A stretch of DNA of 64,000 nt from NCBI GenBank assembly GCA_963575745.1, contig CAUYUJ010014604.1, forward strand, positions 590,688-654,687, written 5' to 3'. The notes beneath the pieces were generated by a model, which was not told the origin of the DNA, ran no database searches, and saw nothing but the letters and a program-made list of their open reading frames with translations. The stretch is from Prorocentrum cordatum (taxonomy: Eukaryota; Sar; Dinophyceae; Prorocentrales; Prorocentraceae). This document shows positions 23,218-64,000 of this stretch, in pieces. A program made the position numbers and the translations under genes. The stretch's first letter is position 1. Each line of letters starts with the position of its first letter.

Positions 23218-23557
23218 TTATCCCAGTGCGACCCTACCTAGGAGTTGGAGCCTTTTGGAGTTGGAGCCTCTTCTCTCGCCCCGTTGCCTCTGCTTCTTGC
23301 CCCCGTCCGTCCTTTCGCGCCCTCTTCGCTTCCCCTCTCCTGGTTCGTTCTCGTCCCGCTTCCCATCGATCATCTCTGGAATGCGACGTTCAAGTATCAA
23401 GCGTGGCAATTTGCATTCTTGCCACACCCCGAGTAGTCGAGCACGACCGGCCGACACTGTGTGTGTCCCAGGCTTTGCGAAAGAAGAACATTAGTAGGAG
23501 CGGTAAACGCCGTCCTCCTCCTTCTCCTCATCGTCGTAGTTGTAGCAGTAGCGGTAG
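23218..23557. other. Spacer before the AGT microsatellite
   Basis: Unique sequence between the left array and the microsatellite. A frame from 23214 gives a short ordinary-looking peptide before poly-Ser, with no recognisable domain. Confidence 0.3.
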
Positions 23558-24075
<518 letters not shown>

Positions 24076-47262: not shown

Positions 47263-48404
47263 CTTCTGCTCAGGATCCAGAAACTGTTCCAGTGGACTTA
47301 GAGGGGGGCGCCGAGGCCGTGACCACGAGGGGAGGCGACCTCGACCCTCCTGGGACTCCTGACGCCCTTCTCCCTGGAGGTACGGGCGCCGACACCTGAG
47401 TCGCGCCCGGCCCCCGCGCAGCAACCTCTCAGGAGAGACTGGCCTTCGTGCCTGCTTGCGGCTTTCTGCCGCCCCCCCTGGCACGCGCACTTCCTGCCTT
47501 TGGATGCAAGTGTGCGTGCCAGTAATATCGTCCACACGGCAATCTCGGTTGCGTGTGGACCCGGGGCCCCTGGCCTCACTGTAGTTGTTTTCACCTGCTA
47601 GGCCCAGCCTGGCGCGCGGTTGTGGGCGATCCGGTGGTTTTCGCTTGTCCATAGATTGCGCCACTCCCTGGATTCTACCAGCTTCTACGGCCTTCAGCCG
47701 TGCCCCCTGGAACGATGTGGCTGTGAGGGACGCGTCTTGGGTATGCGACGGTCCCGTCCCTCGGGTGCTACCATGCGTAGGCGTGTGGGTGGCGCTGGGT
47801 CGCATTGATCGGTGCACTTCTCAGCGACCAACGAGTTCTCACCGTGGGGCTTCGTGCACCTTGCTGCATTCTGACCAGATCGCTGGTCCCTTGGACGCAG
47901 GCGCATCTCAGCAGTAGAAGGTTCTTCCTCGGGCGATTTAGGCTTCCACTCCCTGGATGCGTGTTCTGACGTCGCGACGGTTTGCTGGCGCCGTCAGTTT
48001 ACTTTTCCCGCTGGACTGCGTCGCCAGTGTCAGTCTGCCCATGCCCGTCAGACTCCCTGGATTGACGTCCCGCACGGAAATCGTTCCCTATCTCTGTTCG
48101 TCCGTTTCGTTCACAGTGGGAACGCCTAGCGCGCCATTTCGGCTGCGCTCGGCTCTGCTCGGAGGCTGACCTCTCAGACTCCCTGGGTGCGCCGTTGCGT
48201 GTTCACCTCGGGGGTTGCCCGGCAGACTCCCTGGATTTGCACGCCCTGGCTTCTCAGACGCCCTGGGTTGCCGCTGCCCGCCGCCTGACCGCGGCTCCGC
48301 GCGCGCCCGCCCCCTCGTCGCGGCCGCGGCCCGACCGCGACCGCCTGCCGCTGGCGCTTCCGCCCGCAGCCGTAAAAAAAAAAAAAACGTATTCCCACCA
48401 GGTT
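47263..48404. other. Spacer with dispersed ACTCCCTGGAT words and an A14 run
   Basis: 47263-47400 still matches the element's 51.48-51.62-kb region. From 47400 on no gene is recognisable. ACTCCCTGGAT or a one-base variant recurs at about 47663, 47949, 48052, 48178, 48229 and 48258, and again at 48531. A run of 14 A at 48374-48387 may be the poly(A) end of an inserted copy, directly before the 5' part of element copy 3. Confidence 0.5.
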
Positions 48405-48423
48405 CCGTTGTCCTTGGCTCAAG
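48405..48423 (+). other. Possible degenerate spliced-leader relict
   Basis: CCGTTGTCCTTGGCTCAAG, similar in context to 39022-39040, 165 bp upstream of the first ATG of element copy 3. The leader identity is tentative. Confidence 0.3.
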
Positions 48424-48587
48424 CCGTCTCTGGGCCCCGGCCACTCGGCCGGGTCTCCTAGCTCAAGGGGCCCCCCCTAGGAGTTTTTCGGGCCGCGCGT
48501 TTCCCCCGGGGCCGCGCCGCCATAGCAGACTCCCTGGATTCCTCTTCGTCGGCTACGCGCTGCTGCCTGGCCCAGGTCGGGCTTAGT

Positions 48588-51500
48588 ATGGATGGGCGAC
48601 CGATCGGCGGCGGTCCTGACACCCCTGGTGCGACGATGACCGCGTCGCCAGTCGAGGACCGCGTGGCCAACGGACTGGCAGACTCAAGGCATCCTCACCC
48701 CGGATCACAGGACACCATCCCGCCAGGGCAGCCGTCGCCCCTCGCCCCCTGGGATGTGAATGCTCCCGCCGACGCTGTGTGCACACGAGAACCGATGGCC
48801 TTCAGCCAAACGGGAAGTCGGGGAGATATGTTCAACCCCGCGATACACACTGACATAGCGACCTTCAGTCGCTCCCCTGAATTTGATAACTACAGGCATG
48901 ACGCCCTCCCGCCTAGCTTATCCCCCCCTCTCTCACCCCCACCCTTCCCATGCCCATTGCTGGGCGCCCAATCTCCTTTTCTCCAGGCGGAGCAGGGCAG
49001 AGCTGGATCGCCCGCGGCGATGCCAGGATCATGGGGGGGGCGAGGGCCCCGCTCCAGAACAAGCGAACGCCCCGACGGACCCAGGTTCGCTCGGGCCGCG
49101 TACTGACGATTGGCCGAGGGATGCCCCCGACGACCGACTCAGGGGCCTCAACGACGATGATGGGGGGACTAGGGATTTGGCCCCCCCAGAGGGTGACCGC
49201 GGATGCGTCAGGAGGGGAGGCAGGCAGACGCCTACCCTCGGACCCCACTCGCATCATAGAGGCTTGCGCCTTCACTCCGCCGAACGCCCCCTCCTGGGCG
49301 CTTCTGTGCTGAGAGAAGCAGCCTTCAGCTGCGAATCGGCCAGCCCTGACACCGCGGAGACCCATGCCCACGCCGCGCAGCCGACTTCCCCTGCGGACGT
49401 TGACAGAGGGCCTGACGGCTTTCGCCGCACCCCCGCTGCCCCCCTCGGATGCAGCATGGACATGGAAGATGGGCCTTCAGCCCTTGGAGCGAACTGTGAC
49501 ATAGCAGAACGAGCCTTCAGCTCGAGGCTCCAAGGCACATCTAGCAACCTCAGAGATGACGAGCCTTCAGCTCGAGAGTCGGAGACGGCACCAATGGTCG
49601 TCGGGAGTGCCGCTGGGCATGTGGCCACGAGCGGCGACGGGAGTCGCCGCGCGCCCGCCGCCCTCCCTGGAGTTGACAGCACTGCGCACCTTGAGAACGG
49701 GCCTTCAGCCCGAGGAGCTCCCAGCGAGACAGCAGCGCTGGCCGACCCCGCAGCCTGGGGCGCCCCAAGCGGGCGGCTCGGCGCCGAGGGCGATGCATCG
49801 ACCAGTCAACTCCCTGGGCACTCCTGGAACCCCGAAGACTTTCGTCAGCCGTCCGCCCCCCAGTCGGACAGTCGCGGACGTGACGAGCCTTCAGCTCGAG
49901 ATTCTCATACTGACCGAGCCTTCAGCTCGAGGGTCCAAGGGGTAGCGGGGTGCAGCAGAATGGACATAGAGGATGGGCATTCAGCCCTTGGAGCGATCTG
50001 TGATGCAGCAGAACGAGCCTTCAGCTCGAGACCCCAAGGCGCATCTGGCAACCTCAGAGGTGATGAGCCTTCAGCTCGAGAGTCGGAGACGGCACCAATG
50101 GTCTTCGGGAGTGCCACTGAGTATGTGGCCACGAGCGGCGACAGGAGTCGCCGCGCGCTCGCCGCCCTCCCTGGAGTTGACAGCATTGCGCACCTAGAGA
50201 GCGGGCCGTCAGCCCGAGGAGCTCCCAGCGAGACAGCAGCGCTGGCCGACCCCGCAGCCTGGGGCGCCCCTAGCGGGCTGCTCGGCGCAGAGGGCGATGC
50301 ATCGACCAGTCAACTCCCTGGGCACTCCTGGAACCCCGAAGACTTTCGTCAACCGCCCGCCGCCCAGTCGGATAGTCGCGGACGTGGCGAGCCTTCATCT
50401 CGAGATTCTCATATTGAACGAGCCTTCAGCTCGAGGGTCCAAGGCGTAGTGGGATGCAGCAGAATGGACATAGAAGACGGGCCTTCAGCCCTTGGAGCGA
50501 CCTGTGATACAGCAGAACGAGCCTTCAGCTCGAGACTCCAAGGCACATCTAGCAACCTCAGAGGTGACGAACCTTCAGCCCGAGAAGCGGAGACGGCACC
50601 AGCGGTCCTCGGGAGTGCCGGTGGGCATGTGGCCACGAGCGGCGACGGGAGTCGCTGCGCGCCCGCCGCCCTTCCTGGAGTTGACAGCATCGCGCGCGCA
50701 GAGAATGGGCCTTCAGCCCGGGGAGCTCCCAGTGAGACAGCAGCTTTGACCGACCCCGCAGCCTGGGGCGCCCCGAGCGGGCTGCTCGGAGCCGAGGGTG
50801 ACGCATCGAACAGTCAACTCCCTGGGCATTCCTGGAATCCCGAAGACTTTCGTCAGCCACCCGCCCCCCAGTTGGACAGCCGCGGATGTGACGAGCCTTC
50901 AGCTCGAGATTCTCGCACTGAACGAGCCTTCAGCTTGAGAGCCCAAGGCGCATCGGGATGCAGCAGAATGGACATAGAAGATGGGCCTCCAGCCCTCGTG
51001 GCGACCTTTGATGCAGCAGAGCGAGCCTTCGGCTCGAGGCTCCAAGGCACAGCTGGCAACCTCAGAGATGACGAGCCTTCAGCTCGAGAATAGGAGACGG
51101 CACCAATGGTCGTCGGGAGTGCCGCTGGGCATGTGGCCACGAGCGGCGACGGGAGTCGCCGCGCGCCCGCCGCCGTTCCTGGAGTTGACAGCGCTGCGCA
51201 CGCAGAGAATGGGCCTTCAGCCCGAGGTGCTACCAGCGAGACAGCAGCCTTGATCGACCCCGCAGCCTGGGGCGCCCCAAGCGGGCTGCTCGGCGCCGAG
51301 GTCGATGCAACGACCAGTCAACTCCCTGGACACTCCCGTGACCCCGAAGACTTTCGTCAGCCACCCGCCCCCCATTCGGACAGTCGCGGATGTGACGAGC
51401 CGACAGTTCGAGACTCCCACGCTGAACGAGCCTTCAGCTCGAGGGTCCAAGGCGTACCGGGTAACCGCAGAAGTGGCGAGCCTTCAGCTCAAGATCCAGG

Positions 51501-52764
51501 AACAGTCCCAATGGACTTAGAGAGAGGCGCCGAGGCCGTGATTACGGGCGGAGACGACCTCGACCCTCCTGGGACTCCTAACGCCCGTCTCCCTGAAGGT
51601 ACGGGCGCCGACGCCAGTGTCGCGCCCAGCCCCCACGCAGCAAACCTCACAGAAGAGACTGGCCTTCAGCCAGGAGGAAGAGAGCGAGAGACGGGCGAGC
51701 CTGGTAGCAGTGGCCGCAGAGAGGCGCGCCCTTCCGCTGAGACGATCGACCGTAACCGGCCTTCCCTGGGAGCGACGACTGGGTGGTACACGGGACTGCC
51801 TCGCGCGCCCAACGCTACCAGGCTCTCTGCCGATCCCGCCGTCGGGGCAGGTTCCCTGGGCGATCGGATCGATCGGATCGATCGCACCAGACCTCCGATC
51901 GCCACCGCAGGATCGCCCCGTGCCTCCCCTCCCTCGCCCACCTCCTCCTCTCTCAATTTTTCCCCTCCCGGCCCACCTCCTGGGCTGGGGCGTCTTGGTG
52001 GCCCCCCTGGCGGTCGCGGCCGCGGCGACGAAGATCCGTCTCAAGGTCGGGAACGGGGGCCCCTCCGATGGACGGACAACGGCTCCCCTTTCGTGTTGAG
52101 ATACGTGGGCCACGGAGGTCCCTTCATGGCCGACCCGCCCTCCTACCCATCCCCTGACCTTGCCCTGGAGGAAGAGGTGCGGAGGGAAAACCAGTTTGCC
52201 CCCTCGGAAGCTGAGGGCCCCAGTCAAGCCCAGAGGGGCAGAGGACAATACGCTGCTGACCTCCACGCTCGATGGCTGGACGCCACAGGGCGCGCGAACG
52301 CTGACTGGGCAGCCAGTCGGGAGGCGGACGGGCGCATGTGTGGCCCGCGCGTGGCGGGCGCCAGGGTCACTGGCAGGGGGGGTGCCATGAACGCCCTCCG
52401 CCGTCACCTTGTGCGCATCGACGGTCCTTGGCGCGAGTTCCCCGACCGAGGGGCACCGAGGGCCCCGCGCGAGACCAGCAACCTTGAGCTCCTCGCGCAC
52501 CATGCGTGGAGGGGGCACCGCCCAGGCCACCCGGGCTTGCGAGCAGGCAGCCCCATGCGTGTGGCTCCAGCAGAAGCCGCCCTCCCTGGACTTGGTTCGC
52601 AGCGCGCCACTTCAGCCCCGACCCTTGCTATCCTGGACGTCTGCTGGCTCGTCTGGTCCGTCACTGGAGGAGACTATGAGGGGCGTCTTGGGGGAGTGCA
52701 ACCAGACCCGATGCAGGTCCTTGCCCTTCGCTTTGCGAGCATCACCCATGACCCCAGTATATGA
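48588..52764 (+). pseudogene. Element copy 3: repeat-module ORF, lightly damaged
   Basis: It begins at ATG 48588 (MDGRPIGGGPDTPGATMTAS), homologous to the segment at 41.93 kb. Comparison with copy 1 shows two frame changes between about 48940 and 49030. From 49030 a single frame carries a Pro-rich linker, AAFSCE, and then four exact 168-residue modules (49456-51471). A TAG at 51091-51093 interrupts the fourth; in the other modules the codon is TCG, so one base change explains it. The same frame then continues through a basic Pro/Arg region (51.65-52.1 kb) and a non-repetitive part (LHARWLDATGRANADWAASR; MNALRRHLVRIDGPWREFP) to TGA 52762-52764. The repeat part is Ser/Ala/Pro/Gly-rich and probably disordered. 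No known domain. Confidence 0.6.
49456..51471 (+). repeat. Four tandem 504-bp (168-codon) modules
   Basis: ATGGACAT-GA(A/G)GA(T/C)GGGC starts the units at exactly 49456, 49960, 50464 and 50968: period 504 bp each time, with no indels. Identity between units is high; differences are scattered substitutions. Each module has the order GPSALGA, RAFSSR, EPSARE, SGDGSRRAPAALPGVDS, GPSARGAPSETAA, TSQLPGH, NPEDFRQ, EPSARDS, RAFSSRVQG. Worn copies lie at 40.66, 41.43, 42.72, 43.21, 46.25 and 46.75 kb. Confidence 0.95.
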
Positions 52765-55593
52765 AGGGAAATACTGGACGCCGATAGCCCCTCCGTGACG
52801 GAAAGGCAACTGGCGCGCCTCGAGTACGTGACCATGGCTGCTGCTGCGCATTACTGTGACATAGGCATGGAGCTCCCGAGCGGATTCGACACAGATAGGA
52901 TGGTCATGCCCACCAGATCTCCCGATGACGCTGTTCCCCCGAACAGTAGCGGCCCTAACCGACCAGACGGGACCCAGGACCCCATGGATGACGAGACCAT
53001 GGAGTATGCGCATAGAGTCCTAATTCATGAGCGCAGACAAAATATAGTTCACTTTCCGGACCATGGGGACATCAGACAGTGGGCCATCACGAGGGGGAAT
53101 CTCGGACGGGCTGGGAACGACGTACACTCGAGACGACAAGCAGGCAGAGGCCCAGTACCATGGGTAGAGCCCGCCCTCACAGGGATAAACGCCAGCTCAA
53201 TGGGCATCCCTGGGGTGCCTATTCAAGGGGGCGACAGTAGCGACAACGCATGGCCCTGGTCCACCACAGCGCATCGACTACGGTTGCGGGATTTCTTCTG
53301 CCCGACACAACGATGCGACTTTTGCGGTTCTTGGACGCTCCGAGACCCCACTGGACGACGCTGCATCACCTGCCACAGGTTGGCTAACCCGTGGAGCTAC
53401 AACCAGGGTGAGCGGCAAGCAGGGGACCTCCCGCCGGGTCACCCAGATCCAGGCTCGGAGCAGCCACTCAACAGGCGCGCCCTCGACCTCCTGGACACCA
53501 CCTTGCTGTTGCAGCTTGTCAGAGCGGGCATGCGGTACGCCCCAATCGCCGATTTTCTCTACTCCCCAACCCAACCTGGCCCTTCCGATTTCACCCCGAC
53601 CTGGCTCGTGGGCGAACTCCTGGGAGCCTGGAGACATATGGTGGCCCAAGCCTCAGACCTGGCTGAAATCTGGGCGTACGAAGGCACCGTAGCCCTCGAG
53701 GACTTCGGAGGCGACTGGCAACTCCGCACAGCAAAGGTCTCCCTTGCGCTACTCTGTTCCGCGCCAGACTCCTGGGCCCTCAACGTCTGCCAGAAAATGC
53801 GTCGCGTCATGAGGGCCAGCCCCGAAGGACGACTAGACGGCTGGTTCCCTCCGCATCTCTACCGCGACGACCCGGGCACGCACCCGCTATCGCACTGGAG
53901 GGGCCCCCAGTCGAGCAGGACAACCGCAACCGTCGCGATAGGGCCGACCAACTTGATACACCTGGACGACCTCCGCTGGCTGAGCGCCACCATCGGAGGG
54001 GACCACCTGGACTGCGCCATAAGCGACACACGAGACGGCATGGTCCCCAGCAGACGCTGGTGGCACAACAGGGACAGTCCACATTTCCAGGCAGCCGAGG
54101 TCATGAGAGGTGCACTACAAGCTGCAGCGCGCACCGACTGGCGCCCAATACATGCCCAAATGGGGCAGGGTACCCCCCTGGGAAACCTCGTCACAGACGC
54201 CGTTATCCGGCGCTTGGAGACAGACAGTGGGGGCCGTGGCCACGTGCGTGCTGGGCGCCCCAGCGGTGGGCACTCCCATGGATGTGGACAGCCCCTGGCG
54301 CGACAGGAGGGCCCCCACTGGCGGAGAGGGGGTCGGAGCGACAGCCCCCCACAGACCCCCTCCAGATCCGGTGGAAGACCTACCCACACGGAGCGCTCCC
54401 AGCGAGAGGCCTTCATCGACGAGGTGCGGCGAATCAGGAGAATGGTAGCCAGTAACTCCGTCACCCCAGGTATGCGGTGGAGCAGAATCCTAGTCCCCTT
54501 CATATGGGGCACTGCGACGGACAGGGGTCGGAGCGTGCTCGAGCAGGCCTTTAGGAGCATCAATATCAGTACTACCATCATCGACCAGGCAGCCACTTGG
54601 TGGAGATCACGAGGCGTTCTCTCATACAGAGACGCCCAGGTAGTCCTCGCGTCGGAAGCAGACACGTCTTCCAGGGCCACCAGATCCACTCTCGAGGCGC
54701 CCGAATTAGGCAGCTACATTGCACCGCAGCTGCAGGAACGAATGATGCTGCACCTGGATGCGAATGGCTCCCTACAGACCGCCATCTTGTCAGGGGATCG
54801 GCAAGCAGTAGAGGCTGGGGCAAGGGTGCGAGCGGAGCAGGCTAGGGCCGAGCAGAGGTCGAATCCAAGGAACCACTGGCCCACGTTCGAAGAAAGGGCA
54901 CGCCCTGGAGCAGAGGCTGCGACCGCGGGGGCTGCGAGCACAACCACGCCCTGGCATGCGGACGTACGACAGCTGCTCAACCGAGCGAACTTTGCCATCC
55001 CTCAGGGCAGGCTACCGCCAGGCAGCGCAAGAGAAGAGCACCTGGACAGGCTCATCCGCACACTTGACGCCAGACAGCGGGGCGAGGAGGGGGCGGGCAG
55101 AGGGGCCATGCCTGCCCCCGAAGGCAGGGCCTCCGTCAACGGAGATCAGGCACAGTGCCTGGCGCAAAGTTTGCTGCTGGATCACAGGGCAAATGGGCAA
55201 CCAGGCTCCTGGATCTCCAGAGCCCTGCGGCTCTGCCTGGCGCCACGCTACTCTCCCCTCCTGAGGCCAGTACTGACTGTGCGGGCAGTGGACTCCCAGC
55301 CCTACGACGTACTCTACCGCTGGATGACGAGAACCGACATACACACGCCGGAGGACGTGGTCACCTGTCTCCGAAGGGAGGCGCTAGAAGCCGATCTAGC
55401 ACCATACTCTGAACTCACTAACCTGCAAATCCAAGCCCTCATTTGTCACCTCAGCGAGGCGGCTAGCCTGACACACCTTGACGCTAGCGTCTCTGCCAGA
55501 GCCCTCATCGAGAGCCTGGGGGACGGCCTAACCCAGATTGGCCACCCCCCGGAGACAACGCCAGACTTCCCCCCGAAAACATGGATGTTGTAG
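52765..55593 (+). CDS. Element ORF A: large protein with zinc-ribbon-like motif
   Basis: The frame is the same as that of the repeat-module ORF and is separated from it only by TGA 52762-52764. The first ATG is at 52834; a GTG at 52795 is the other option. About 920 residues. A Cys cluster DFFCPTQRCDFCGSW ... RRCITCHRL (Cys codons 53299, 53314, 53323, 53362, 53371) has the spacing of a zinc ribbon or small nucleic-acid-binding finger. The rest is mixed helical and rich in Arg/Asp, with WATWWRSRGVLSYRDAQVVL-like segments (near 54590) and an Ala/Arg-rich stretch at 54830-54960. No catalytic domain was recognised. Position upstream of the endonuclease ORF suggests an ORF1-type structural or RNA-binding protein (inference). 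It ends KTWML at TAG 55591-55593 and overlaps the next ORF by about 55 bp. Confidence 0.55.
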   Translation, partial: REILDADSPSVTERQLARLEYVTMAAAAHYCDIGMELPSGFDTDRMVMPTRSPDDAVPPNSSGPNRPDGTQDPMDDETMEYAHRVLIHERRQNIVHFPDHGDIRQWAITRGNLGRAGNDVHSRRQAGRGPVPWVEPALTGINASSMGIPGVPIQGGDSSDNAWPWSTTAHRLRLRDFFCPTQRCDFCGSWTLRDPTGRRCITCHRLANPWSYNQGERQAGDLPPGHPDPGSEQPLNRRALDLLDTTLLLQLVRAGMRYAPIADFLYSPTQPGPSDFTPTWLVGELLGAWRHMVAQASDLAEIWAYEGTVALEDFGGDWQLRTAKVSLALLCSAPDSWALNVCQKMRRVMRASPEGRLDGWFPPHLYRDDPGTHPLSHWRGPQSSRTTATVAIGPTNLIHLDDLRWLSATIGGDHLDCAISDTRDGMVPSRRWWHNRDSPHFQAAEVMRGALQAAARTDWRPIHAQMGQGTPLGNLVTDAVIRRLETDSGGRGHVRAGRPSGGHSHGCGQPLARQEGPHWRRGGRSDSPPQTPSRSGGRPTHTERSQREAFIDEVRRIRRMVASNSVTPGMRWSRILVPFIWGTATDRGRSVLEQAFRSINISTTIIDQAATWWRSRGVLSYRDAQVVLASEADTSSRATRSTLEAPELGSYIAPQLQERMMLHLDANGSLQTAILSGDRQAVEAGARVRAEQARAEQRSNPRNHWPTFEERARPGAEAATAGAASTTTPWHADVRQLLNRANFAIPQGRLPPGSAREEHLDRLIRTLDARQRGEEGAGRGAMPAPEGRASVNGDQAQCLAQSLLLDHRANGQPGSWISRALRLCLAPRYSPLLRPVLTVRAVDSQPYDVLYRWMTRTDIHTPEDVVTCLRREALEADLAPYSELTNLQIQALICHLSEAASLTHLDASVSARALIESLGDGLTQIGHPPETTPDFPPKTWML

Positions 55594-56956
55594 AAGCTTC
55601 CCCCTGAGACCTGGACGTAGGTACTCCCCTATGCATGGTCTGCAGCGAAAGCATCCTGGGCTTCGCAGAAGTCTTGATGCCGTGCGGCCACTTGTTCCAC
55701 GCCGAATGCCTGAGCCAGTGGAGGGTGATCCAGCCAACACAGGCCCATTCCTACAAAGATGTTCCCCAGTAAACTGCCCTAATTGCCGCTCCAACGACAG
55801 GGGCAGCATCACCGTAAGGCTGCCAGGGCGAGTCTGCGACGCTGATGCCGCTGCGGTGGCGGTACCACCAGGCCTGCTGCAACTCCGCGACGGTACCCTA
55901 GCCCCGCTACAGCCTTTCCTGGGTCTTCAGGAGCTAGCCGAGGTCGTCAGACACCTGGCCCTGGACCTGGACTGCCTCAGAGCACAGGCACTCTCCATTC
56001 GACGGCCCCACACATATGTTACGCTGTCGGACATGCGCAGAATCCACGAGCATGTGAGCGGGAGGAGGGCCGCCCTGGAGATGCAACAGGCCCCGATGGA
56101 CGTGGACGGGACCCCACCCGACGGTGGAGACGACACGGACCCCGATGGCACGCATAGCAGTTCGCAGAACCCTGGGACCCCGCCCCCACCACGACCCCTC
56201 GGCCCCACTAACAGGACAGATAGGATACGACAAGCCCCGCGGATCACTTGTGGGAGATGGGCCCTACTTCTCGGACGAAATCCACCAGAGGACGAATTCA
56301 GGAGGAGAGGGCCCATGCGGTTTCCGGTGGGACTGCTAACCACGGCCGTCCGAGACACTGCAGCTGACCTGGTAATTTCCAGAACCGCGTACGTCGGCGA
56401 TCGAGTAGCCGACGAGACTGGAGTCACGTTCGCACTCGCAGGCCCCGACGCCTGGGAGCAGATCAAAGCCTTGGTCACGGAGCGCAGAGACCAGCCCCCT
56501 GGGAGCGCCGTCCCAACGATCCTCTTGGTAGACGCGCAAGCTTCACAGATGGACGCTGCCCTGGCGGCAGCTTCTGCTGCGGGGTGCCCGTGCTGTGTCC
56601 TCCCCCTGGCCACTGAGGGAGTGTCATCCCCTGGAGGACCGGATCCCATCGAGCTCGCGACCCTGGCAAACGCACAGTGGGGCTACCGAGCGACCAGCAG
56701 GATCACTCACCTCGTCCCGATCGGTTACCCTTGCCGAACTGGCAAGCCCAGCCCACCAATGCAACAGCTTTTTGCGGCGCAATTCGACATAGCAGGCAGG
56801 ACACTGCGCACAATTCTGCCCCCGTCAATAGTCGTGCACTGGGGAGGGAGGACCGGGGACACCTCTGACGCACTACACATCCTAACCCCCGAGAGCGGCA
56901 ACGACGGCGTCGTCGCGCAGATCATGCGGTGGAAGGAAGAGCTAAGGCAATCCTGA
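55538..56956 (+). CDS. Element ORF B, first part (unknown; contains end of RING finger)
   Basis: Frame 2, 472 codons. It overlaps the end of ORF A and is +1 to it. Residues before about 75 are probably out of sense (they read through the RING region); from VNCPNCRSNDRG onward the sequence looks like real protein, with LGLQELAEVVRHLALDLDCL, YVTLSDMRRIHEHVSGRRAA and, after a Pro/Asp-rich linker, a globular-looking segment (LVISRTAYVGDRVADETGVT; TILLVDAQASQMDAALAAAS; RTILPPSIVVHWGGRTGDTS). No family was recognised. It ends at TGA 56954-56956, and the same frame continues open immediately after. Confidence 0.5.
   Translation: MATPRRQRQTSPRKHGCCRSFPLRPGRRYSPMHGLQRKHPGLRRSLDAVRPLVPRRMPEPVEGDPANTGPFLQRCSPVNCPNCRSNDRGSITVRLPGRVCDADAAAVAVPPGLLQLRDGTLAPLQPFLGLQELAEVVRHLALDLDCLRAQALSIRRPHTYVTLSDMRRIHEHVSGRRAALEMQQAPMDVDGTPPDGGDDTDPDGTHSSSQNPGTPPPPRPLGPTNRTDRIRQAPRITCGRWALLLGRNPPEDEFRRRGPMRFPVGLLTTAVRDTAADLVISRTAYVGDRVADETGVTFALAGPDAWEQIKALVTERRDQPPGSAVPTILLVDAQASQMDAALAAASAAGCPCCVLPLATEGVSSPGGPDPIELATLANAQWGYRATSRITHLVPIGYPCRTGKPSPPMQQLFAAQFDIAGRTLRTILPPSIVVHWGGRTGDTSDALHILTPESGNDGVVAQIMRWKEELRQS
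55608..55805 (+). pseudogene. RING-H2 finger split over two frames
   Basis: Frame 0 reads LCMVCSESILGFAEVLMPCG and then HLFHAECLSQWRV: the first Cys pair, then Cys-x-His-x2-His-x2-Cys, as in RING-H2 E3 ligase fingers. The frame stops at 55770-55772, but the last Cys pair, VNCPNCRSNDRG, is present in frame 2 from about 55775. A single small indel around 55760-55775 rejoins them. Frame 0 is also closed upstream by TGA 55605-55607, so the finger is not linked in frame to ORF A. RING fingers usually recruit ubiquitin-conjugating enzymes. Confidence 0.7.
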
Positions 56957-58510
56957 AACGGTACGATCACGGCCGAATGGGTCACCACGAGAGTGCAACT
57001 CCCCAGAGACGAACTGCTAAGGCACCAGGGACTCGAGATGCTCTTCCATCATGTTCTTCGCTGTCGAGCAGCGAGGCCTATGAGTGGAGAAGACGGCCTG
57101 CGCGCCCCCCTGGACAACTTGCAGGCGGCAGCTCAAATCACCACGCTGGCCCACCAGACGGCGTGCATCTGGAGGACCCACGAGACGAGTGACTCAGTGC
57201 ACATCCCAGTTCCCCCCAGAGCAATATGCTTAGCCCACTCCATTGCTTCCGCAACAGCCGGAGCCATGGGGCACAGAGTGGGAATTTACGGGACAGGGCT
57301 TCTCCTGCTTGCTACTCCAGAAAGGATTGCCGCTCCCGTCCTGAGGCACCTCCGGGACGAGCGCCCACGCATCTTTGGAGACGGATCCTCCTCACCAGCA
57401 CTAGGACCACGCCGCATCCTCCTGGAAGGACCCTGGGATGGTGGACCCTCATTCGTACGCCTCTCCGACCCCGAGGACGGCTTCCACCTGCGGTGGAACC
57501 TCGCAGACATGGGACAAACGCGGCCAACTGACGTCATGCAAGCTGTAGAGGCCACCACCGGACCGGACACTGTCGAGCAGGTCTCCACCGTATACGCCTG
57601 GTTCCCAGACGTCTCTGATTACAGGTACATGACACAAGTTCGCATACGCCTGGCGGCGGCCGACGCCATGGCTGCAGCCTTTGTAGGCACCAGCTGCAAA
57701 GTGATCGGAGCCCAGACCATCAGGATCTTCCCCGTGACGCCATGCAGGGATCCCATGCACAGAGCAGCGGTGGTATCCAGGGAGCTACAGGAGCACGTGG
57801 ACGCCCTGGCCAGCACCTCCGTCCGGCAAGCCCCCAGGCGCGCCATTCAGCCCCAAATGCTCGAGATCACCACGATGGATAGGCATGGGACGCAGCTTGG
57901 AGAAGTTCGCCCTCGTAGCATGCGCCCAGACGCATGGCTCCCTGGGCACAGCACGCTCCGGCTCTACTCAGCCGCGGTCGGCTCGGCGAATGCGCAGATA
58001 CTAACCCGGCTCTGGCCACTGCCGGACGGCCCGAACGGTACCTCGCACCCAGCCAACACCAGAGCCGCCCCACCTGTCATCACAGACGACTGGATCCGGG
58101 ACAATGCCAGGGCAATGAGCAGGAGCGCACCCAACACGGTACCCGGTGTGTTTCAGGGAAGTGGTCTGCGGGACTACGAGACAGTCTTCCAGCCCGGAGA
58201 ATACCTGCTCGCGGCAATAGCGGCCAGTGGAGCTGTCGAGGTCACCACGTACGAGCGGCGAAGCTGGATTCCTCTTCACTTCAGCACCTGGGTGACGATA
58301 CTCCTCCCCGCGGACGCTGACTTCAGAGCAGCCGCGAGAGGTGCAGACAGACCACAAGCCAGACTGAAACTGCAGCTTGCCCACTGGTCCAATTCACGTT
58401 GCGCGCCTGGACTCCGCCCCTGCGGCGACCCCAACTCCCGCCTCCGTGGGACTGCGGGTCAATGCACCTTCCCAACAACCGCTCCCCAGACGCACCACTG
58501 CGTCCCTTAA
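56957..58510 (+). CDS. Element ORF B, second part (unknown)
   Basis: The frame is continuous with the preceding one except for TGA 56954-56956; there is no close ATG (a GTG at 56993 or later ATGs would be needed), so read-through or a nonsense mutation is likelier than a new gene. Segments: DELLRHQGLEMLFHHVLRCR, ICLAHSIASATAGAMGHRVG, GPSFVRLSDPEDGFHLRWNL, VYAWFPDVSDYRYMTQVRIR and YLLAAIAASGAVEVTTYERR. It reads like a folded protein of about 480 residues. No domain was recognised. Its last 134 bp overlap the next ORF, which lies in the +1 frame. Confidence 0.5.
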   Translation, partial: NGTITAEWVTTRVQLPRDELLRHQGLEMLFHHVLRCRAARPMSGEDGLRAPLDNLQAAAQITTLAHQTACIWRTHETSDSVHIPVPPRAICLAHSIASATAGAMGHRVGIYGTGLLLLATPERIAAPVLRHLRDERPRIFGDGSSSPALGPRRILLEGPWDGGPSFVRLSDPEDGFHLRWNLADMGQTRPTDVMQAVEATTGPDTVEQVSTVYAWFPDVSDYRYMTQVRIRLAAADAMAAAFVGTSCKVIGAQTIRIFPVTPCRDPMHRAAVVSRELQEHVDALASTSVRQAPRRAIQPQMLEITTMDRHGTQLGEVRPRSMRPDAWLPGHSTLRLYSAAVGSANAQILTRLWPLPDGPNGTSHPANTRAAPPVITDDWIRDNARAMSRSAPNTVPGVFQGSGLRDYETVFQPGEYLLAAIAASGAVEVTTYERRSWIPLHFSTWVTILLPADADFRAAARGADRPQARLKLQLAHWSNSRCAPGLRPCGDPNSRLRGTAGQCTFPTTAPQTHHCVP

Positions 58511-58922
58511 CCCACTCCCTGGACCAGCCAGGCCCACGCGCTTCCCAGAACTAGCTGAGGTGCTTGTGAGCGCAGGTAGACCCTCTCCGGCTGACCTAGT
58601 GCGAGCTGACGAGGATGCAGTAGGCATCGCGCGTGGCATGTTGGGTAGATTCGCTGCAGTTGTCCCTGAGCAAGCGGTCCACGACATGGCGCGGGGTGTG
58701 CAGCGCCGGATCGCCCTCGAAATCCGAAGGCAGCTTGAAGGCCGGCCCATGCAGAGGTACAACTGGGACATGTTTGCCGCAATCTGGATCCTGCAGCTAG
58801 CCAACCCGGGGAACCTGGACCGTGACCATGTCTGGCAACTCATCCGGGAGCTCGGGATACGAGAGGAGGTCACGAGACAGCTCCCCTTCACGCAATGGCT
58901 CGTGCCTGAACCGGACGCCTGA
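58377..58922 (+). CDS. Element ORF C: short helical protein (unknown)
   Basis: Frame 0, 181 codons. The Pro-rich start is followed by a strongly helical region: FPELAEVLVSAGRPSPADLV, AVHDMARGVQRRIALEIRRQ and DHVWQLIRELGIREEVTRQL. It overlaps ORF B by 134 bp and ORF D by 101 bp. It may be translated as a fusion by frameshifting rather than alone. No family recognised. Confidence 0.45.
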   Translation: MPTGPIHVARLDSAPAATPTPASVGLRVNAPSQQPLPRRTTASLNPLPGPARPTRFPELAEVLVSAGRPSPADLVRADEDAVGIARGMLGRFAAVVPEQAVHDMARGVQRRIALEIRRQLEGRPMQRYNWDMFAAIWILQLANPGNLDRDHVWQLIRELGIREEVTRQLPFTQWLVPEPDA

Positions 58923-61900
58923 ACCTGGCTCAGCACACCAACCGTGGCTCGAAGTCCCTGGATCCAGAGGTGCAGACGTTGACGCCGCCACCACGCATCC
59001 CATCCCAGAAAATGTCATCAGCGCCCTGGACGCCCTAATCAACAGGCTCTCAAACCTCCACTGGGAGGAACGGCAGCGCCACGATCCTGGTAGGGTGACT
59101 CGGGGACGTAGAGGAGGCTCCCAGGCAACCAGAACCACGGGCGCGGGGGTCAGGCCTGTTGACGCTCCAGGTGTGAGCCAGCGCAGAAGCCGCAGCCGGG
59201 CGAACAAGGACACGGGGGCCGCAGACGCCCTCGCCAGCGATGTGAGGCCGTCAACCACTCCAGTTCCTGGATCGACCGCTCCTCCGACAGGCCCTGGGTT
59301 CCCGACAACGCCGTCAGTGCAGACAAGGTCAGGCCCCAACGGTGGACCTATAGGCAGCCCCGTTTCGAACGCGAATGGGACACAACCACAGACCCCGTTG
59401 GCTGCACCTGAGCAGGGTGCGACACCACCTTCCTTGGCCAGACCGACAGGCGGCGGAGAGGCGGACAACGACGTGAGCCGCGAGGGTAACATCAGGCAAA
59501 CTCCCCCGCGGGTGACTCCTGTGAACCCCGCGACACACAGGGGTGGATCTACACGGACCCGTGCCCCGGACCGTGCAACCAGACCGAGCCCTGGCAGCGC
59601 AGAAGACCCCGCGCCAACCGAGACCTCTGCCGAGACAGCAGGAGTAAGTGGAGCGGGCCCCACAGGCAGTCCCGAGAGCCACACCGGTGCAGACGCGCCC
59701 AGAGGCGATCGGACCTCTCCAGTTGGCGCGCATACCAGCGCGGAGCAGCCCGCGACTGGGAGCTGTGGAGCCGCGACTCCGGCCAGTACCGGAGACGCGC
59801 AGTGTGCACCCGCGACCGCCAGGGCAGCTGATAGTGGTGGGGCCGGACCCCCGATATCCGCACCTCCACGGGTCCCAGCAGACCCGGCAACAGCCCAGAG
59901 CAGGAGACCGCCTCCAGGCACGGTGCAAAGCTGCGGTAGCGATCCCCTGGGACGAGGAGATACGCCGAGAAGCGGGCCCGAACTCCCTCCGTGCGTGGAA
60001 ACGGATTGGAGGCGGGAGTACGAAGCCATGGCGCGCACGCTCAGACAAGCCCAGGTGCACGCCACCGACGGCACCGGTAGCCCCCCCACCGAGGACGAGT
60101 GGAACCAAGTGCTCAGCGCGATAGCCTGGGCTGCTGCGATACCGCAACTTGACAAAACCGTACGGGACCTGCATGAAGACCTTGGCCTCACAATGCGAAT
60201 TCCAGACGCCTTCGACGCCTATTGGAACACCCACCCACCCCCTGGAACGCGCAACCCCATGGGCAGGATAATACACACACGCCATGTGGCGCTAACGGCA
60301 GACGCAGCCTGTGCCCAACTGAGACAGCTCGCAGTCAGCCCGGCGTCTCGCTCGGACTGCGTGTCGGCGCCCGAGGCCCCCTTCCAGGGCCTGACACCAG
60401 CCATGCTCCGCACCATTTTGCGCGCGGGAGCCGTCGCGCCATTTACCGACGACAGAGACCAGGTTCTGAGTGAGACAGTAGAGGCTTCTCCAAGGAACCT
60501 CCGCAGAACTAGAAGCGCCGCTCGACGCGCCAGCGCCCCCAGAAGTGCGCGCGCCCCGGCTGAGACCATTGTGAGCACAGCAGACACCAGTGTGGCCAGG
60601 CGCGCCCGAATCAGAAGTGCGGCCGGGCCGCGACCGCCCGAACCCAGCGCCCAGCCGCGCATCACCGCTGCTGACAGGGCACGCAGGAGCCCGTCCCGCC
60701 GAGCCCCCCGGGGCAGGGCCGAAGGCACACGCAGGACCACACTGCGAGGCACGGCTCGCGCCAGAGCAGCAGGCAACACAAGTAGGGAAAGGGCCACCAG
60801 ACCAGGCACCAGAGCACCCAATCCAAGGACCCTGGCCGACCTCTGGGAGCGCTCTCGCCACGGAACAGGCGAAGGCACCCCCACCGGCGTCGCCGGCCGA
60901 GGCGTTACAAGACGGGCATCCAGGCCAGCAAGTGCGGAGGGCGGTCGGACCCGGAGGCCGCGACCCCGACCAGCAGGTTTCACACCAGACGAACCCACTG
61001 CGGCTCCCCAGCCTGCCGACGTGCTCCAGCAGGTATGGGGGCGACACAGGGGCGGACGAACCGGCCTCTCTCCAGTCGCCCCCGCCGACACGACGCTCGC
61101 CGCGTACCAAATCGCAGGTCTGGACAATACGCAGATCATCAGCACTCTCAGGACTCTTCAGCAGGACGGCATTGTTTCCAACGGCTCCCCCGACGGTACC
61201 TGGGACATCTCGGGACACCTTAGGCTCCACTCAAGCGTCGACCCCAGGCTTGGGGACGACTGGGCGCTCGACTTCACCCAGCAAACAAGAGCCCGAGTGG
61301 TCGACCCTAGACCGAGCCCGAGTGCCGCCTTGGGACCGAGCCTACACCTCGTCTCACTCTTCGATGGATGGGGTCTGGCGAGACTTGCGATTGGCGACCT
61401 CATGGCCAAAGTTGCCACGGTTCCACGTTTCAGATCCTCCGCGTTTGTCGAAGTAAACGAAGAAGCGGCAACCCGAGTCGAGAGGCGTTGGGACCGTGAC
61501 AACGCTGCACGCTTTGACGGGGGCCCCCCGCACGTGAGACTAGGAGTCGACGCCTGGGACCTCCTGAGAGGAGACGACGGACAAAATCCCTGGTCCGACC
61601 ACCTCAGAACCTTGGATCCTGGAAGTCTCCCCGTCATCATAGCCGGACTCCCATGTACCAACCTGTCTGCAGCCAGCCAGCACGGAGGACTTGACGGACT
61701 GGCAGGCTCTCAGTCAGTGCACTTCTTTGTTGTGCCGCTCCTATGGAGCATCACGCGTAGGCTCCGCCCGGACGTACGCATCCTAATATGCTGCGAAGGC
61801 CCAGCAACGATCCTATCGGCACACAAACAGGCAATGTGCACGGCCCTGGGGGAGCTTCCACTTGACTGGGCGGTTTGCCTGGATGCCGCTCCCACAGTGG

Positions 61901-62685
61901 CCAGCCCGAGAGATCGCCTATGGTTCAGCAACTGCCCTCCCGCTGAAGACTTTGTCATGTACCCCCGACTCCCCAGTCCCTGGGAAAGACGGTGGGCCTA
62001 CAGACCAGACGGGCGCATCCCCACCTGGACCCGATCCAAGGCTTCCGCCAATGCCCCCGAGGCCATAGTTCCGTGCAGCTACCAGACGCATCCACTGTGC
62101 CTTCTGTACAGCGAAGACAGCAGCTACAGGTGGCTCCTCCGCGCCCTCTCCAACACCAGGAACGGCATTAAGAACGCACTTGCGGAAACTGGAGCCGAGC
62201 GTAGCTTCCAGGGCTGCACAGAAGGATTGGCTCTCGTCTGTCAAGGTAGAGAGCGGGAGAGCCTGGCCAGCGAAGGAAAGGTGAAGGCCTGGGCAGGATG
62301 GCTGCTGGCACACAGAAGAGAGCATGGACTCAGGATCCCATCCCCCGAAGAGCGGGCTCGAGCTGTGGGCCTTGGTTCCTACTATTGGTCCTTGGACATT
62401 AGGGGGAGGAGGCTCTATGACGCCGTAGGGATCCATTGCGACCCGAGGTGCCTCCAACGCAGACTCGCGACCTCCATCCTGGCGCGGGGCAGAAACGAAC
62501 CCATCCCCGGCCAGCATCACGAGGCTCCGACCGAGAGACACATGTGGGCCGCATGGAGACAGGCGCGCAGCTTCGCGGATAGAAACTGCCCTTGGGCGCC
62601 ACTGGCCGAAAACTCCTTTCCGGACGATATAGTCAGAACCATGCTGCAGCAACAGCTTGCTGATTACGGGTCGCCGCTCCCCTAG
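58822..62685 (+). CDS. Cytosine-5 DNA methyltransferase with long N-terminal extension
   Basis: 1287 codons. Residues 1-835 are largely disordered Pro/Thr/Arg/Ser-rich sequence with two ordered-looking parts (WRREYEAMARTLRQAQVHAT; MLRTILRAGAVAPF). Residues ~840-1260 form a C5-methyltransferase domain that would transfer a methyl group from S-adenosylmethionine to cytosine: motif I LVSLFDGWG (845-851), motif IV AGLPCTNLSAASQHGG with catalytic Cys945, motif VI ICCEGPA with Glu992, motif VIII SPRDRLWFSN (Arg1030, Arg1032), a target-recognition stretch, and a late IPSPEERARAVGL motif IX-like segment. Spacings are normal for the family, all catalytic residues are present, and the domain is unbroken. 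It overlaps ORF C by 101 bp; after TAG 62683-62685 the same frame opens into the endonuclease. Retrotransposon-borne methyltransferases have been published for dinoflagellates. Confidence 0.9.
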   Translation: MTMSGNSSGSSGYERRSRDSSPSRNGSCLNRTPEPGSAHQPWLEVPGSRGADVDAATTHPIPENVISALDALINRLSNLHWEERQRHDPGRVTRGRRGGSQATRTTGAGVRPVDAPGVSQRRSRSRANKDTGAADALASDVRPSTTPVPGSTAPPTGPGFPTTPSVQTRSGPNGGPIGSPVSNANGTQPQTPLAAPEQGATPPSLARPTGGGEADNDVSREGNIRQTPPRVTPVNPATHRGGSTRTRAPDRATRPSPGSAEDPAPTETSAETAGVSGAGPTGSPESHTGADAPRGDRTSPVGAHTSAEQPATGSCGAATPASTGDAQCAPATARAADSGGAGPPISAPPRVPADPATAQSRRPPPGTVQSCGSDPLGRGDTPRSGPELPPCVETDWRREYEAMARTLRQAQVHATDGTGSPPTEDEWNQVLSAIAWAAAIPQLDKTVRDLHEDLGLTMRIPDAFDAYWNTHPPPGTRNPMGRIIHTRHVALTADAACAQLRQLAVSPASRSDCVSAPEAPFQGLTPAMLRTILRAGAVAPFTDDRDQVLSETVEASPRNLRRTRSAARRASAPRSARAPAETIVSTADTSVARRARIRSAAGPRPPEPSAQPRITAADRARRSPSRRAPRGRAEGTRRTTLRGTARARAAGNTSRERATRPGTRAPNPRTLADLWERSRHGTGEGTPTGVAGRGVTRRASRPASAEGGRTRRPRPRPAGFTPDEPTAAPQPADVLQQVWGRHRGGRTGLSPVAPADTTLAAYQIAGLDNTQIISTLRTLQQDGIVSNGSPDGTWDISGHLRLHSSVDPRLGDDWALDFTQQTRARVVDPRPSPSAALGPSLHLVSLFDGWGLARLAIGDLMAKVATVPRFRSSAFVEVNEEAATRVERRWDRDNAARFDGGPPHVRLGVDAWDLLRGDDGQNPWSDHLRTLDPGSLPVIIAGLPCTNLSAASQHGGLDGLAGSQSVHFFVVPLLWSITRRLRPDVRILICCEGPATILSAHKQAMCTALGELPLDWAVCLDAAPTVASPRDRLWFSNCPPAEDFVMYPRLPSPWERRWAYRPDGRIPTWTRSKASANAPEAIVPCSYQTHPLCLLYSEDSSYRWLLRALSNTRNGIKNALAETGAERSFQGCTEGLALVCQGRERESLASEGKVKAWAGWLLAHRREHGLRIPSPEERARAVGLGSYYWSLDIRGRRLYDAVGIHCDPRCLQRRLATSILARGRNEPIPGQHHEAPTERHMWAAWRQARSFADRNCPWAPLAENSFPDDIVRTMLQQQLADYGSPLP

Positions 62686-64000
62686 ACTCGCCTGAAGACC
62701 TACGGACGCTGCACCGCGCCCTTGGGTCTCCCCCGCTCGCGAATCTCGTTCCGGGGGCGAGAACCAGAGCCTGGCAAGCTGCCGGCTCCTCCCTGGGCCG
62801 CGCCCTGGCGCTGCATAGCAATTGCACCGTCCGGCGGCCGCGATCCCTCTGGGCCTACCTACATACTACCGCCTGGAATAACCCCACGTGGGCGGATCTC
62901 TGCGGGGACCTTTCCTTGCGCGGTCGACGCAATCTCAAACGCCACTCAGACCGGCACGCGAAAGGTGGGCTGCTGGAGCGTCAGGTATCTCAAAAGCACG
63001 ACTGCGCACAAAAACATAATCAAACACGCCTTCTTAACTCAGATGACCACCAACGGGAGGATCGGACTCATACAGGAGACCCACTGGACGGAGCACGAAG
63101 CGGCCGTCTGGTCCACCATGTTCCACGCTCGCACCCTGATCGCCTCACCAGCCTACATTGGACCAGCTGGGGGCTGCGCCGGCGGAGTGGCAATGCTCAT
63201 TCTGCACGGCACAACGCTCCTCCAGGCCGAAGACCTCGTCCCTGGGTGCGCCGTCGCAGCCACGATCAGACGAGGTGATAGCACCTACCGCCTGGTATGG
63301 GTGTACCTCCCTCCATCCAGAAAGGCCGAGACCATCGAGGCCATTCGTCAGGCCATCGAGAGATGGGACGATGCCCCCACGTACTGGGGGGGTGACGTGA
63401 ACATTCAAATTGACAACCCCAGAGATGGCGAAACTGATGAGGCGGCGGCTCTCTCTGACCTACTTTCGCTGACCGGATCTAGCGTCTTCCATTGTGACGG
63501 GCCCACCAGGGTGGATGCGGACAACGAGTCGCAGATCGACATTGTTGCGTGCCCCTTCCGACAGCTTGGGGCCTATGGAGTCAGGAAGGCCTGGAAGCCC
63601 TCAGTCTCTGACCACGCCATCCTGTACCTGCAGCCACAGGGTGCCCCCAGAACTCGCAGAGACAACACCATTCGTGCCGGTGACCTAAGAACTCTATACG
63701 CCTTCCTCGAACGCACATTCGGGCTGCCTGACATTGACCTGACTGGCCTCTTACAACCCGCCGACTGGGTCCGTCCGGCGGCCCCTGGGCATTTCCCAGC
63801 CAGACACAGTGACAACGACGACGGCGAAGGAGAGAGGGAACAGGAGCCGTCTGCTCCACCTCCAGCCCCCAACCTGGTTGCCGATCACACCGCCCCCCTA
63901 TTGCCTGCCCTCCTCACTCTTGGTCGCCACGCCATGTCCGCTGCCATACAAGACTGGTGGAGGAAGTGGCGCAGGAGCAAAACCAACCGCTCACCAGGTA
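62686..64000 (+). CDS. LINE ORF2 N-terminus: APE-type endonuclease (partial)
   Basis: Frame 1 is open from just after the methyltransferase stop to the window end without interruption, so ORF2 continues beyond. The start is uncertain; ATG 63043 lies inside the domain, since KVGCWSVRYLKSTTAHKNII just before it is the usual first strand (with Ser where most families have Asn). Then come GLIQETHW (catalytic Glu codon 63076), GGVAMLILHG, LVWVYLPPSR, YWGGDVNIQIDN (Asp codon 63394, Asn 63400), GPTRVDADNESQIDIVACP and VSDHAILYL (SDH at 63607-63615). These are the ordered motifs of the LINE endonuclease that nicks the target. A Pro-rich linker and HAMSAAIQDWWRKWRRSKTN follow. Translation might use read-through of the preceding TAG, giving a methyltransferase-endonuclease fusion. 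Confidence 0.85.

Follow-up and report, generated by a model that had tools for sequence, protein, structure and literature searches.

The capture of DNA methyltransferases (DNMTs) by long interspersed nuclear elements (LINEs) of dinoflagellates has already been published (PMC5890265); a preliminary description of the DNA studied here had pointed to such capture by retrotransposons of dinoflagellates and charophytes. In SymbioLINE-Dnmt of Symbiodinium (de Mendoza 2018), as far as the available parts of that article describe it, the DNMT lies in open reading frame (ORF) 1, upstream of an ORF2 that encodes an endonuclease and a reverse transcriptase (RT). All three Symbiodinium families retain its key residues, and a figure legend includes an RNase H domain (PMC5890265). 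The accessible portion of a 2025 article groups the SymbioLINE DNMTs with orphan clades (PMC12344493). So far, retrotransposon-borne DNMTs have been read as tools for self-methylation. Here we analyse a stretch of 64,000 nucleotides from Prorocentrum cordatum (contig CAUYUJ010014604.1, positions 590,688 to 654,687 of the forward strand; hereafter the window), which is likely to contain a copy, now dead, from a family of giant APE-type LINEs. In this family an ORF1 with a DNMT3-like domain would be followed by an ORF2 in the -1 frame behind a UAG, and then by an ORF3. This degree of confidence covers the anatomy with its -1 junction; two rival readings, a restart of translation at the junction and an active enzyme, each touch one inferred step.

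The window copy and its relatives

Copies were searched for in 21,875 contigs, together 4.13 Gb, among which the window is C13755:590688-654687. The window has a GC content of about 0.6 and holds the following parts of the element.

51511-62685, plus strand: family ORF1, interrupted by stops and by indels that shift the frame; collinear with the copy c18960 (85.4%)
58822-62685, plus strand: part of ORF1 that is still open, with a C-terminal methyltransferase domain; 1287 codons from a GTG, 1294 from stop to stop
61354-62430, plus strand: DNMT3-like C5-methyltransferase domain, motif I to motif X
62667-62924, plus strand: N-terminal part of ORF2 in the -1 frame, from a tblastn search with residues 2-87 of the c18960 ORF2
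62673-62692, plus strand: conserved ORF1/ORF2 junction around CCCC-TAG (TAG in 37 and CCCC in 41 of 41 copies)
62915-62930, plus strand: approximate position of a 5-bp deletion in the window copy, which brings the endonuclease into the methyltransferase frame
62923-64000, plus strand: ORF2 with an APE endonuclease (PF14529, below cut-off), continuing past the window end with an RT and a probable RNase H (RVT_1 in c18960)

The open remainder of ORF1 is closed by a TAG at 62683-62685; its frame reopens at 62686 and runs past the window end, with 688 codons open in the contig. The methyltransferase motifs start at 61354 (SLFDGWG), 61645 (GLPCTNLS, the Cys of which is residue 945 in the numbering of the preliminary description), 61789 (CCEG) and 61906 (PRDRLW), and the endonuclease motifs at 63073 (QET), 63388 (GGDVN) and 63607 (SDH). 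Against PF14529 the window endonuclease stays below the Pfam cut-off (E 0.002, 18.4 bits, cut-off 27.4), while its relative P0002 clears that of PF03372 (25.2 vs 24.5 bits). An intact methyltransferase had been reported at the end of the ORF. The domain is indeed present with its motifs, but the surrounding ORF1 contains three in-register stops and ten frameshifting indels; the ORF1 of other copies is broken too.

In all ten other copies, each fetched with 10 kb of upstream sequence, a methyltransferase is followed by an endonuclease, and in eight of these the upstream frames A, B and C of the window copy (see below) are also matched. The ten are not a random sample, as they were selected among the endonuclease hits because they had long open frames or matched over the full length. 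An unrelated host methyltransferase gene that adjoins a LINE by chance was ruled out by this shared order; we found no point in its support and consider it almost inconceivable. The preliminary description had proposed a LINE-like element that carries a methyltransferase, and had suggested a search for an RT downstream and for other copies of the same gene order. The proposal holds: an RT and a probable RNase H are encoded downstream of the window, and the order is kept in each of the ten copies.

Used as a protein query, the endonuclease yielded 3169 first-look candidates (96 scored, all matching) and the methyltransferase 1564 (97 scored, 99 matches). Since the former outnumber the latter, family copies that lack the methyltransferase may exist. 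When a DNA query spanning the junction was used, which by design is biased towards copies with both parts, matches were found in 40 of 40 scored copies, the window's included, and 36 of these were end to end. No relatives were found among viral contigs in two scans, from which records close to the P. cordatum genome were possibly excluded. Two loci, C15938:97250-98602 and C17100:35911-37263, have equal match scores and one identical junction stretch, and are either a recent duplication or an assembly duplicate.

A conserved junction between ORF1 and ORF2

In the letters of the window the endonuclease follows the methyltransferase after one TAG in the same frame, as had been described, but this arrangement is the product of the 5-bp deletion, which only the window copy has among 11 aligned copies. 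The copy c3224 has a 5-bp deletion of its own slightly upstream, with other stops in the way, and in c4825 a 13-bp insertion likewise puts the endonuclease in frame with the methyltransferase, one TAG away. In the other copies the endonuclease lies in a different frame or additional stops precede it. The single-stop junction, which had been thought possibly new, is therefore an indel product, and in the family the endonuclease is encoded in the -1 frame. A methyltransferase-endonuclease fusion made by readthrough of one in-frame UAG would suit the window and c4825, yet the in-frame relation rests on indels that differ between these two copies. Moreover, between the TAG and the endonuclease it is the -1 frame that is constrained: the ratio of non-synonymous to synonymous substitution rates (dN/dS) of the ORF2 N-terminus is 0.26 in this frame vs 1.44 in the other two frames pooled. 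The in-frame continuation also has stops in c13221, c14798, c15938 and c3224. Readthrough was rejected because of the constrained -1 frame and the indel-dependent in-frame state, and we regard it as highly improbable.

For a closer view of the junction 41 copies were compared, after the removal of seven duplicate loci. The stop is TAG in 37 of them, with TAA, GAG, TAC and TGG found once each, and in most copies the site reads (C/T)TC-CCC-TAG. The 20-nt segment around it ranks fourth from the bottom in diversity among 475 overlapping segments, and the three that are still less diverse lie at +60 to +81. Past the TAG, 38 of the 41 copies keep the -1 frame open up to +240 and 35 have no ATG in that stretch; upstream, the frame is closed within 22 nt of the TAG in 31. 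The pattern of substitutions agrees with a change of frame. In an alignment of the window with the ten other copies, all 67 bins between 52690 and the TAG (the final one straddles it) have their substitution peak at the same codon phase, with only a slight excess in five of them (53890; 59281-59880; ratios 1.07-1.19). The peak shifts to the -1 phase in the remaining seven of seven bins. Codon-phase tests gave p 5e-5 both for positions -180 to -31 and for positions 60-299 relative to the TAG. Proline is the last residue in all eight aligned methyltransferases, the window's and those of seven outside relatives. In addition, the endonuclease proteins P0002 and P0003 have an N-terminal extension that, by eye, resembles the -1 frame.

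The junction thus points to -1 frameshifting at C-CCC-UAG, or to a restart at a non-AUG codon. We infer that -1 slippage of the Pro-tRNA is the better reading, because CCCC and UAG are conserved, the -1 frame is open without an ATG, the codon phase switches, the relatives have an extension and the terminal proline is shared. With UAG in the A site, the Pro-tRNA paired with CCC would re-pair with the CCC one base upstream. Ribosomes at CCC-UAG would then sometimes slip back one base and produce an ORF1-ORF2 fusion, in which the DNMT3-like domain may be tethered to the endonuclease and RT.

Several observations weigh against frameshifting. A canonical X-XXY-YYZ heptamer is absent from the site in the 41 copies. 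No significant conserved RNA structure was found (8 to 26 of 100 column shuffles reach the observed energy), and single-sequence folding at the junction gives a z of -0.22. An ATG is present in the -1 frame behind the TAG in six of the 41 copies and upstream of it in six, and 20 of the 41 were selected with a junction-spanning query. Codon phase is missing from the final 30 nt ahead of the TAG and reaches only p 0.036 at positions 0-59 behind it, so the switch point is inexact.

Some of these observations would suit termination followed by a new start at a non-AUG codon immediately after the UAG, so that ORF2 would be made without frameshifting: the weak phase in the first 60 nt, and the lack of a heptamer and of significant structure. 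Unusual initiation of LINE ORF2 is, moreover, known elsewhere. Slippage is better suited by the CCCC before the UAG, which is invariant in all 41 copies even at third positions of ORF1, and by the terminal proline of the eight methyltransferases, although the stop codons of the seven relatives were not seen. We consider a restart rather unlikely, and slippage remains our favoured reading. The ORF2/ORF3 junction served as a control and looks ordinary; there, about 120 nt without codon phase are followed by ATGCC in six of nine copies with data (c15938 ends before the start of ORF3).

The DNMT3-like domain and its catalytic cysteine

Taken alone, the window methyltransferase has no Pfam match at E up to 10, and its relatives P0004 and P0006 match PF00145 below the cut-off (E 0.31 and 0.07). 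Its identity as a methyltransferase is far beyond chance because it is 42-49% identical to seven proteins from other sources. A profile of eight methyltransferase sequences matches DNMT3A with E 8.7e-4. The 34 PDB chains matched by this profile at E up to 10 comprise 29 of DNMT3, four of DRM2 and one DNA methyltransferase, with one chain below E 0.001, and the best fold matches are DNMT3. Motifs I, IV, VI, VIII, IX and X occur in order, as in a C5-methyltransferase with a DNMT3 fold. By these sequence comparisons, the C-terminal domain of ORF1 is DNMT3-like.

The catalytic residue of motif IV varies widely. In 21 distinct copies (28 rows, merged by hand where they were duplicate loci or identical sequences on two contigs) it is Cys in five, including the window's, Gly in ten, Ser in four and Arg in two. 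Motif I has changed from FDGWG to FDEWG or similar (first Gly to Glu) in all ten Gly copies and in one of the five Cys copies. CE and PRDR, by contrast, show no change in any of the 28 rows. The PC of motif IV is kept in each of the four outside relatives that cover the motif. A nucleotide tree places the Gly copies and the Ser copies each in a clade of their own (support 1.0 each) and keeps the two Arg copies apart. With Cys ancestral, as in the four relatives, these two clades and two separate copies imply that the catalytic Cys is lost at least four times on this tree.

The loss of the nucleophile has not been followed by a loss of constraint. Median dN/dS is 0.16 among the Gly copies (44 pairs, one of 45 having dropped out; range 0.13-0.57, median dS 0.52), 0.15 among the Cys copies (10 pairs, 0.11-0.36) and 0.15 among the Ser and Arg copies (15 pairs, 0.09-0.29). 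By part of the element, the medians are 0.15 for the methyltransferase domain and 0.10 for the endonuclease. The domain appears to have been kept by selection after the nucleophile was lost, and, because dN/dS is equal in the three groups, this selection seems to be independent of cytosine methylation. As nucleophile-less lineages keep the domain under the same constraint, it may be retained for a non-catalytic role, such as nucleic-acid binding, assembly or service as a DNMT3L-like partner. The suggestion that the element methylates its own new copies is therefore doubtful as the selected function, with 16 of 21 copies lacking the catalytic Cys and the domain still constrained.

A different possibility is that the domain is an active C5-methyltransferase that works on the element's own DNA or RNA, as has been proposed for SymbioLINE-Dnmt, and that the Cys-less copies are dead side lines. 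The PC of the window copy, of four other copies and of all four relatives covering motif IV would fit, as would the CE and PRDR in every row. Retrotransposon DNMTs can also methylate CG de novo, according to the available parts of PMC5890265. These facts count against a purely non-catalytic role, and there may be active enzymes among the five of 21 copies that keep the Cys, the window's included. However, dead side lines fit poorly with ten Gly copies that form a single, well-supported clade with a median dS of 0.52 and a dN/dS of 0.16, or with four Ser copies in another. The same parts of PMC5890265 report that the tested SymbioLINE-Dnmt gave no de novo DNA methylation in yeast; constraint without a nucleophile agrees with this result and argues against self-methylation as a general role. 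We hold an active enzyme to be doubtful, and prefer a non-catalytic function.

A giant ORF1

The further features of ORF1 and of the sequence in front of it are listed here.

48390-49336, plus strand: match to the 5' part of the better-preserved copies c13221 and c18960 (blastn with their upstream parts)
49447-51472, plus strand: tandem repeats of about 504 bp (168 codons) in the window copy, from self-comparison, with an open frame
52762-52764, plus strand: TGA private to the window copy at the boundary of ORFs 0 and A (a stop in none of five other copies that have the position)
53314-53373, plus strand: CxxC...CxxC cluster in ORF1, a possible zinc site, found by eye
55629-55789, plus strand: RING-H2 finger region in ORF1, with a disturbed frame in the window copy
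56954-56956, plus strand: TGA private to the window copy at the boundary of ORFs B and C (a stop in none of eight other copies that have the position)

As the codon phase is unchanged over all 67 bins, ORF1 was, on this comparative evidence, originally a single frame that exceeded 3,300 codons and ended in the methyltransferase; the start of ORF1 is not fixed and this length is a lower bound. Two copies, c17736 and c14798, are without parts of ORF1, with poor alignment there and wider dN/dS ranges for A, B and C. The multi-ORF layout seen earlier reflects the decay of this one long frame, given the private stops and the single codon phase. ORFs 0, A, B and C were accordingly rejected as separate genes, being fragments of ORF1, and programmed readthrough at the single stops between them was dropped because two of these stops are private to the window copy.

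In two other copies the RING-H2 finger matches PF13639 (zf-RING_2) with 32.4 and 29.1 bits (cut-off 27.3), and its eight ligands are present in nine of the 11 copies when read in register, one of the nine having an internal stop. Upstream of ORF1, further copies of the 504-bp unit are scattered at 40.4-47.4 kb of the window. No repeats of this unit were found in c18960 and c13221, where a different tandem unit of about 790 bp occurs. A further repeated piece lies at 47451-48381 and, in continued window numbering, at 76237-77164 (81% identical).

ORF2, ORF3 and the extent of the element

The ORF2 of c18960 has 1814 amino acids without a stop and carries the RT motif YVDD. Its RVT_1 match lies just above the cut-off (6.7e-7, 29.7 bits, cut-off 29.6), and its Exo_endo_phos_2 match below (1.6e-4, 22.0 bits, cut-off 27.4). 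An APE endonuclease and an RT in one ORF agree with an APE-type LINE. An RNase H in ORF2 is probable, judging by a motif TFDGGA and an RVT_3 match below the cut-off (E 0.011, 16.1 bits, cut-off 21.6). Downstream of the window, the RT motif of the window copy reads YVGD vs YVDD in c18960, one more sign that this copy is dead.

ORF3, separated from ORF2 by a spacer of about 120 nt, encodes a UPF1/SEN1-like helicase of superfamily 1 (SF1; AAA_12 1.1e-29, UPF1 7e-28) and is open for at least 1226 codons in c18960. Of ORF3 the window copy has kept no more than the start, with a 1.7-kb interruption. The helicase is linked to the RT in c18960 and c13221; the first half of ORF3 is also found in c636, and ORF3 starts are found in the window contig and other copies. 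That the helicase half was seen in only two copies, c18960 and c13221, themselves 95% identical, weakens the case for the helicase as a family trait.

From a common 5' end, outside which their flanks are unrelated, these two copies match over 22.5 kb with 95.0% identity. This length is a lower bound for the element, whose 3' end lies beyond the matched part; a search for target-site duplications, limited to that part, yielded none. The earlier estimate of more than 15 kb is right for the family. The shared 5' end starts with CAATTCT, and a degenerate spliced-leader-like string can be seen by eye within about 52 bases. The RNA of the element may once have been trans-spliced. Observed/expected CpG in c18960 is 0.67-0.93 in the bins from 7000 on; bin 5500 (0.84) is mostly flank, and the flank bin 4000 reaches 1.52.

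Other features of the window

Positions 887-907 hold a spliced-leader relic (one mismatch to the leader; no such match is expected by chance), which probably marks the 5' end of a gene that was retroposed. At 23536-24075 a GTAGTA hexamer is repeated about 90 times (97% matches), and long triplet arrays (GAT, CCT) occur in the left half of the window.

Comparison with known systems

The loss of the nucleophile in whole lineages, together with a constrained domain, makes the self-methylation hypothesis directly testable and suggests a non-catalytic use. The RING finger and the UPF1-like helicase extend the cargo seen with a LINE, and the junction is a compact candidate for a frameshifting site in dinoflagellates. 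A bolder proposal is that the DNMT3-like pseudoenzyme, as a non-catalytic module tethered by -1 frameshifting at a stop, forms an anti-silencing kit with the RING finger and the helicase: the pseudo-DNMT might occupy or recruit host methylation partners, the RING finger might remove host factors and the helicase might counter RNA decay. We offer this as a speculation that is improbable as a whole. An incomplete literature search, covering titles and the beginnings of abstracts, found no published report of a RING finger, a UPF1-like helicase, a -1 junction and Cys loss in combination.

The family resembles SymbioLINE-Dnmt, as the available parts of PMC5890265 present it, in being a dinoflagellate LINE with a methyltransferase ORF upstream of an endonuclease-RT ORF and with purifying selection on the methyltransferase. 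It differs from SymbioLINE, known here by description only, in its 22.5-kb match, giant ORF1, RING finger, UPF1-like ORF3 and -1 junction; the word 'frameshift' does not occur in the main text of that article. A further difference is that the catalytic Cys has been lost repeatedly and is kept in just five of 21 copies, unlike the conserved residues described for SymbioLINE-Dnmt. We do not claim membership in that group, since the architecture appears to agree and the conservation of catalytic residues does not.

Other comparisons concern single parts. According to the portion of PMC6338049 at hand, the insect LINEs TRAS and Jockey also combine an SF1 helicase with a non-LTR (long terminal repeat) retrotransposon, but their helicases are of a viral type, whereas that of P. 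cordatum is UPF1/SEN1-like and encoded in a separate ORF3. For the methyltransferase domain itself, the closest known systems are the catalytic domain of DNMT3A/3B and DNMT3L. SymbioDIRS-Dnmt3 likewise carries a Dnmt3-type domain in a dinoflagellate retroelement, but it is described in the same parts of PMC5890265 as a tyrosine-recombinase element with LTRs, whereas the P. cordatum element is a LINE.

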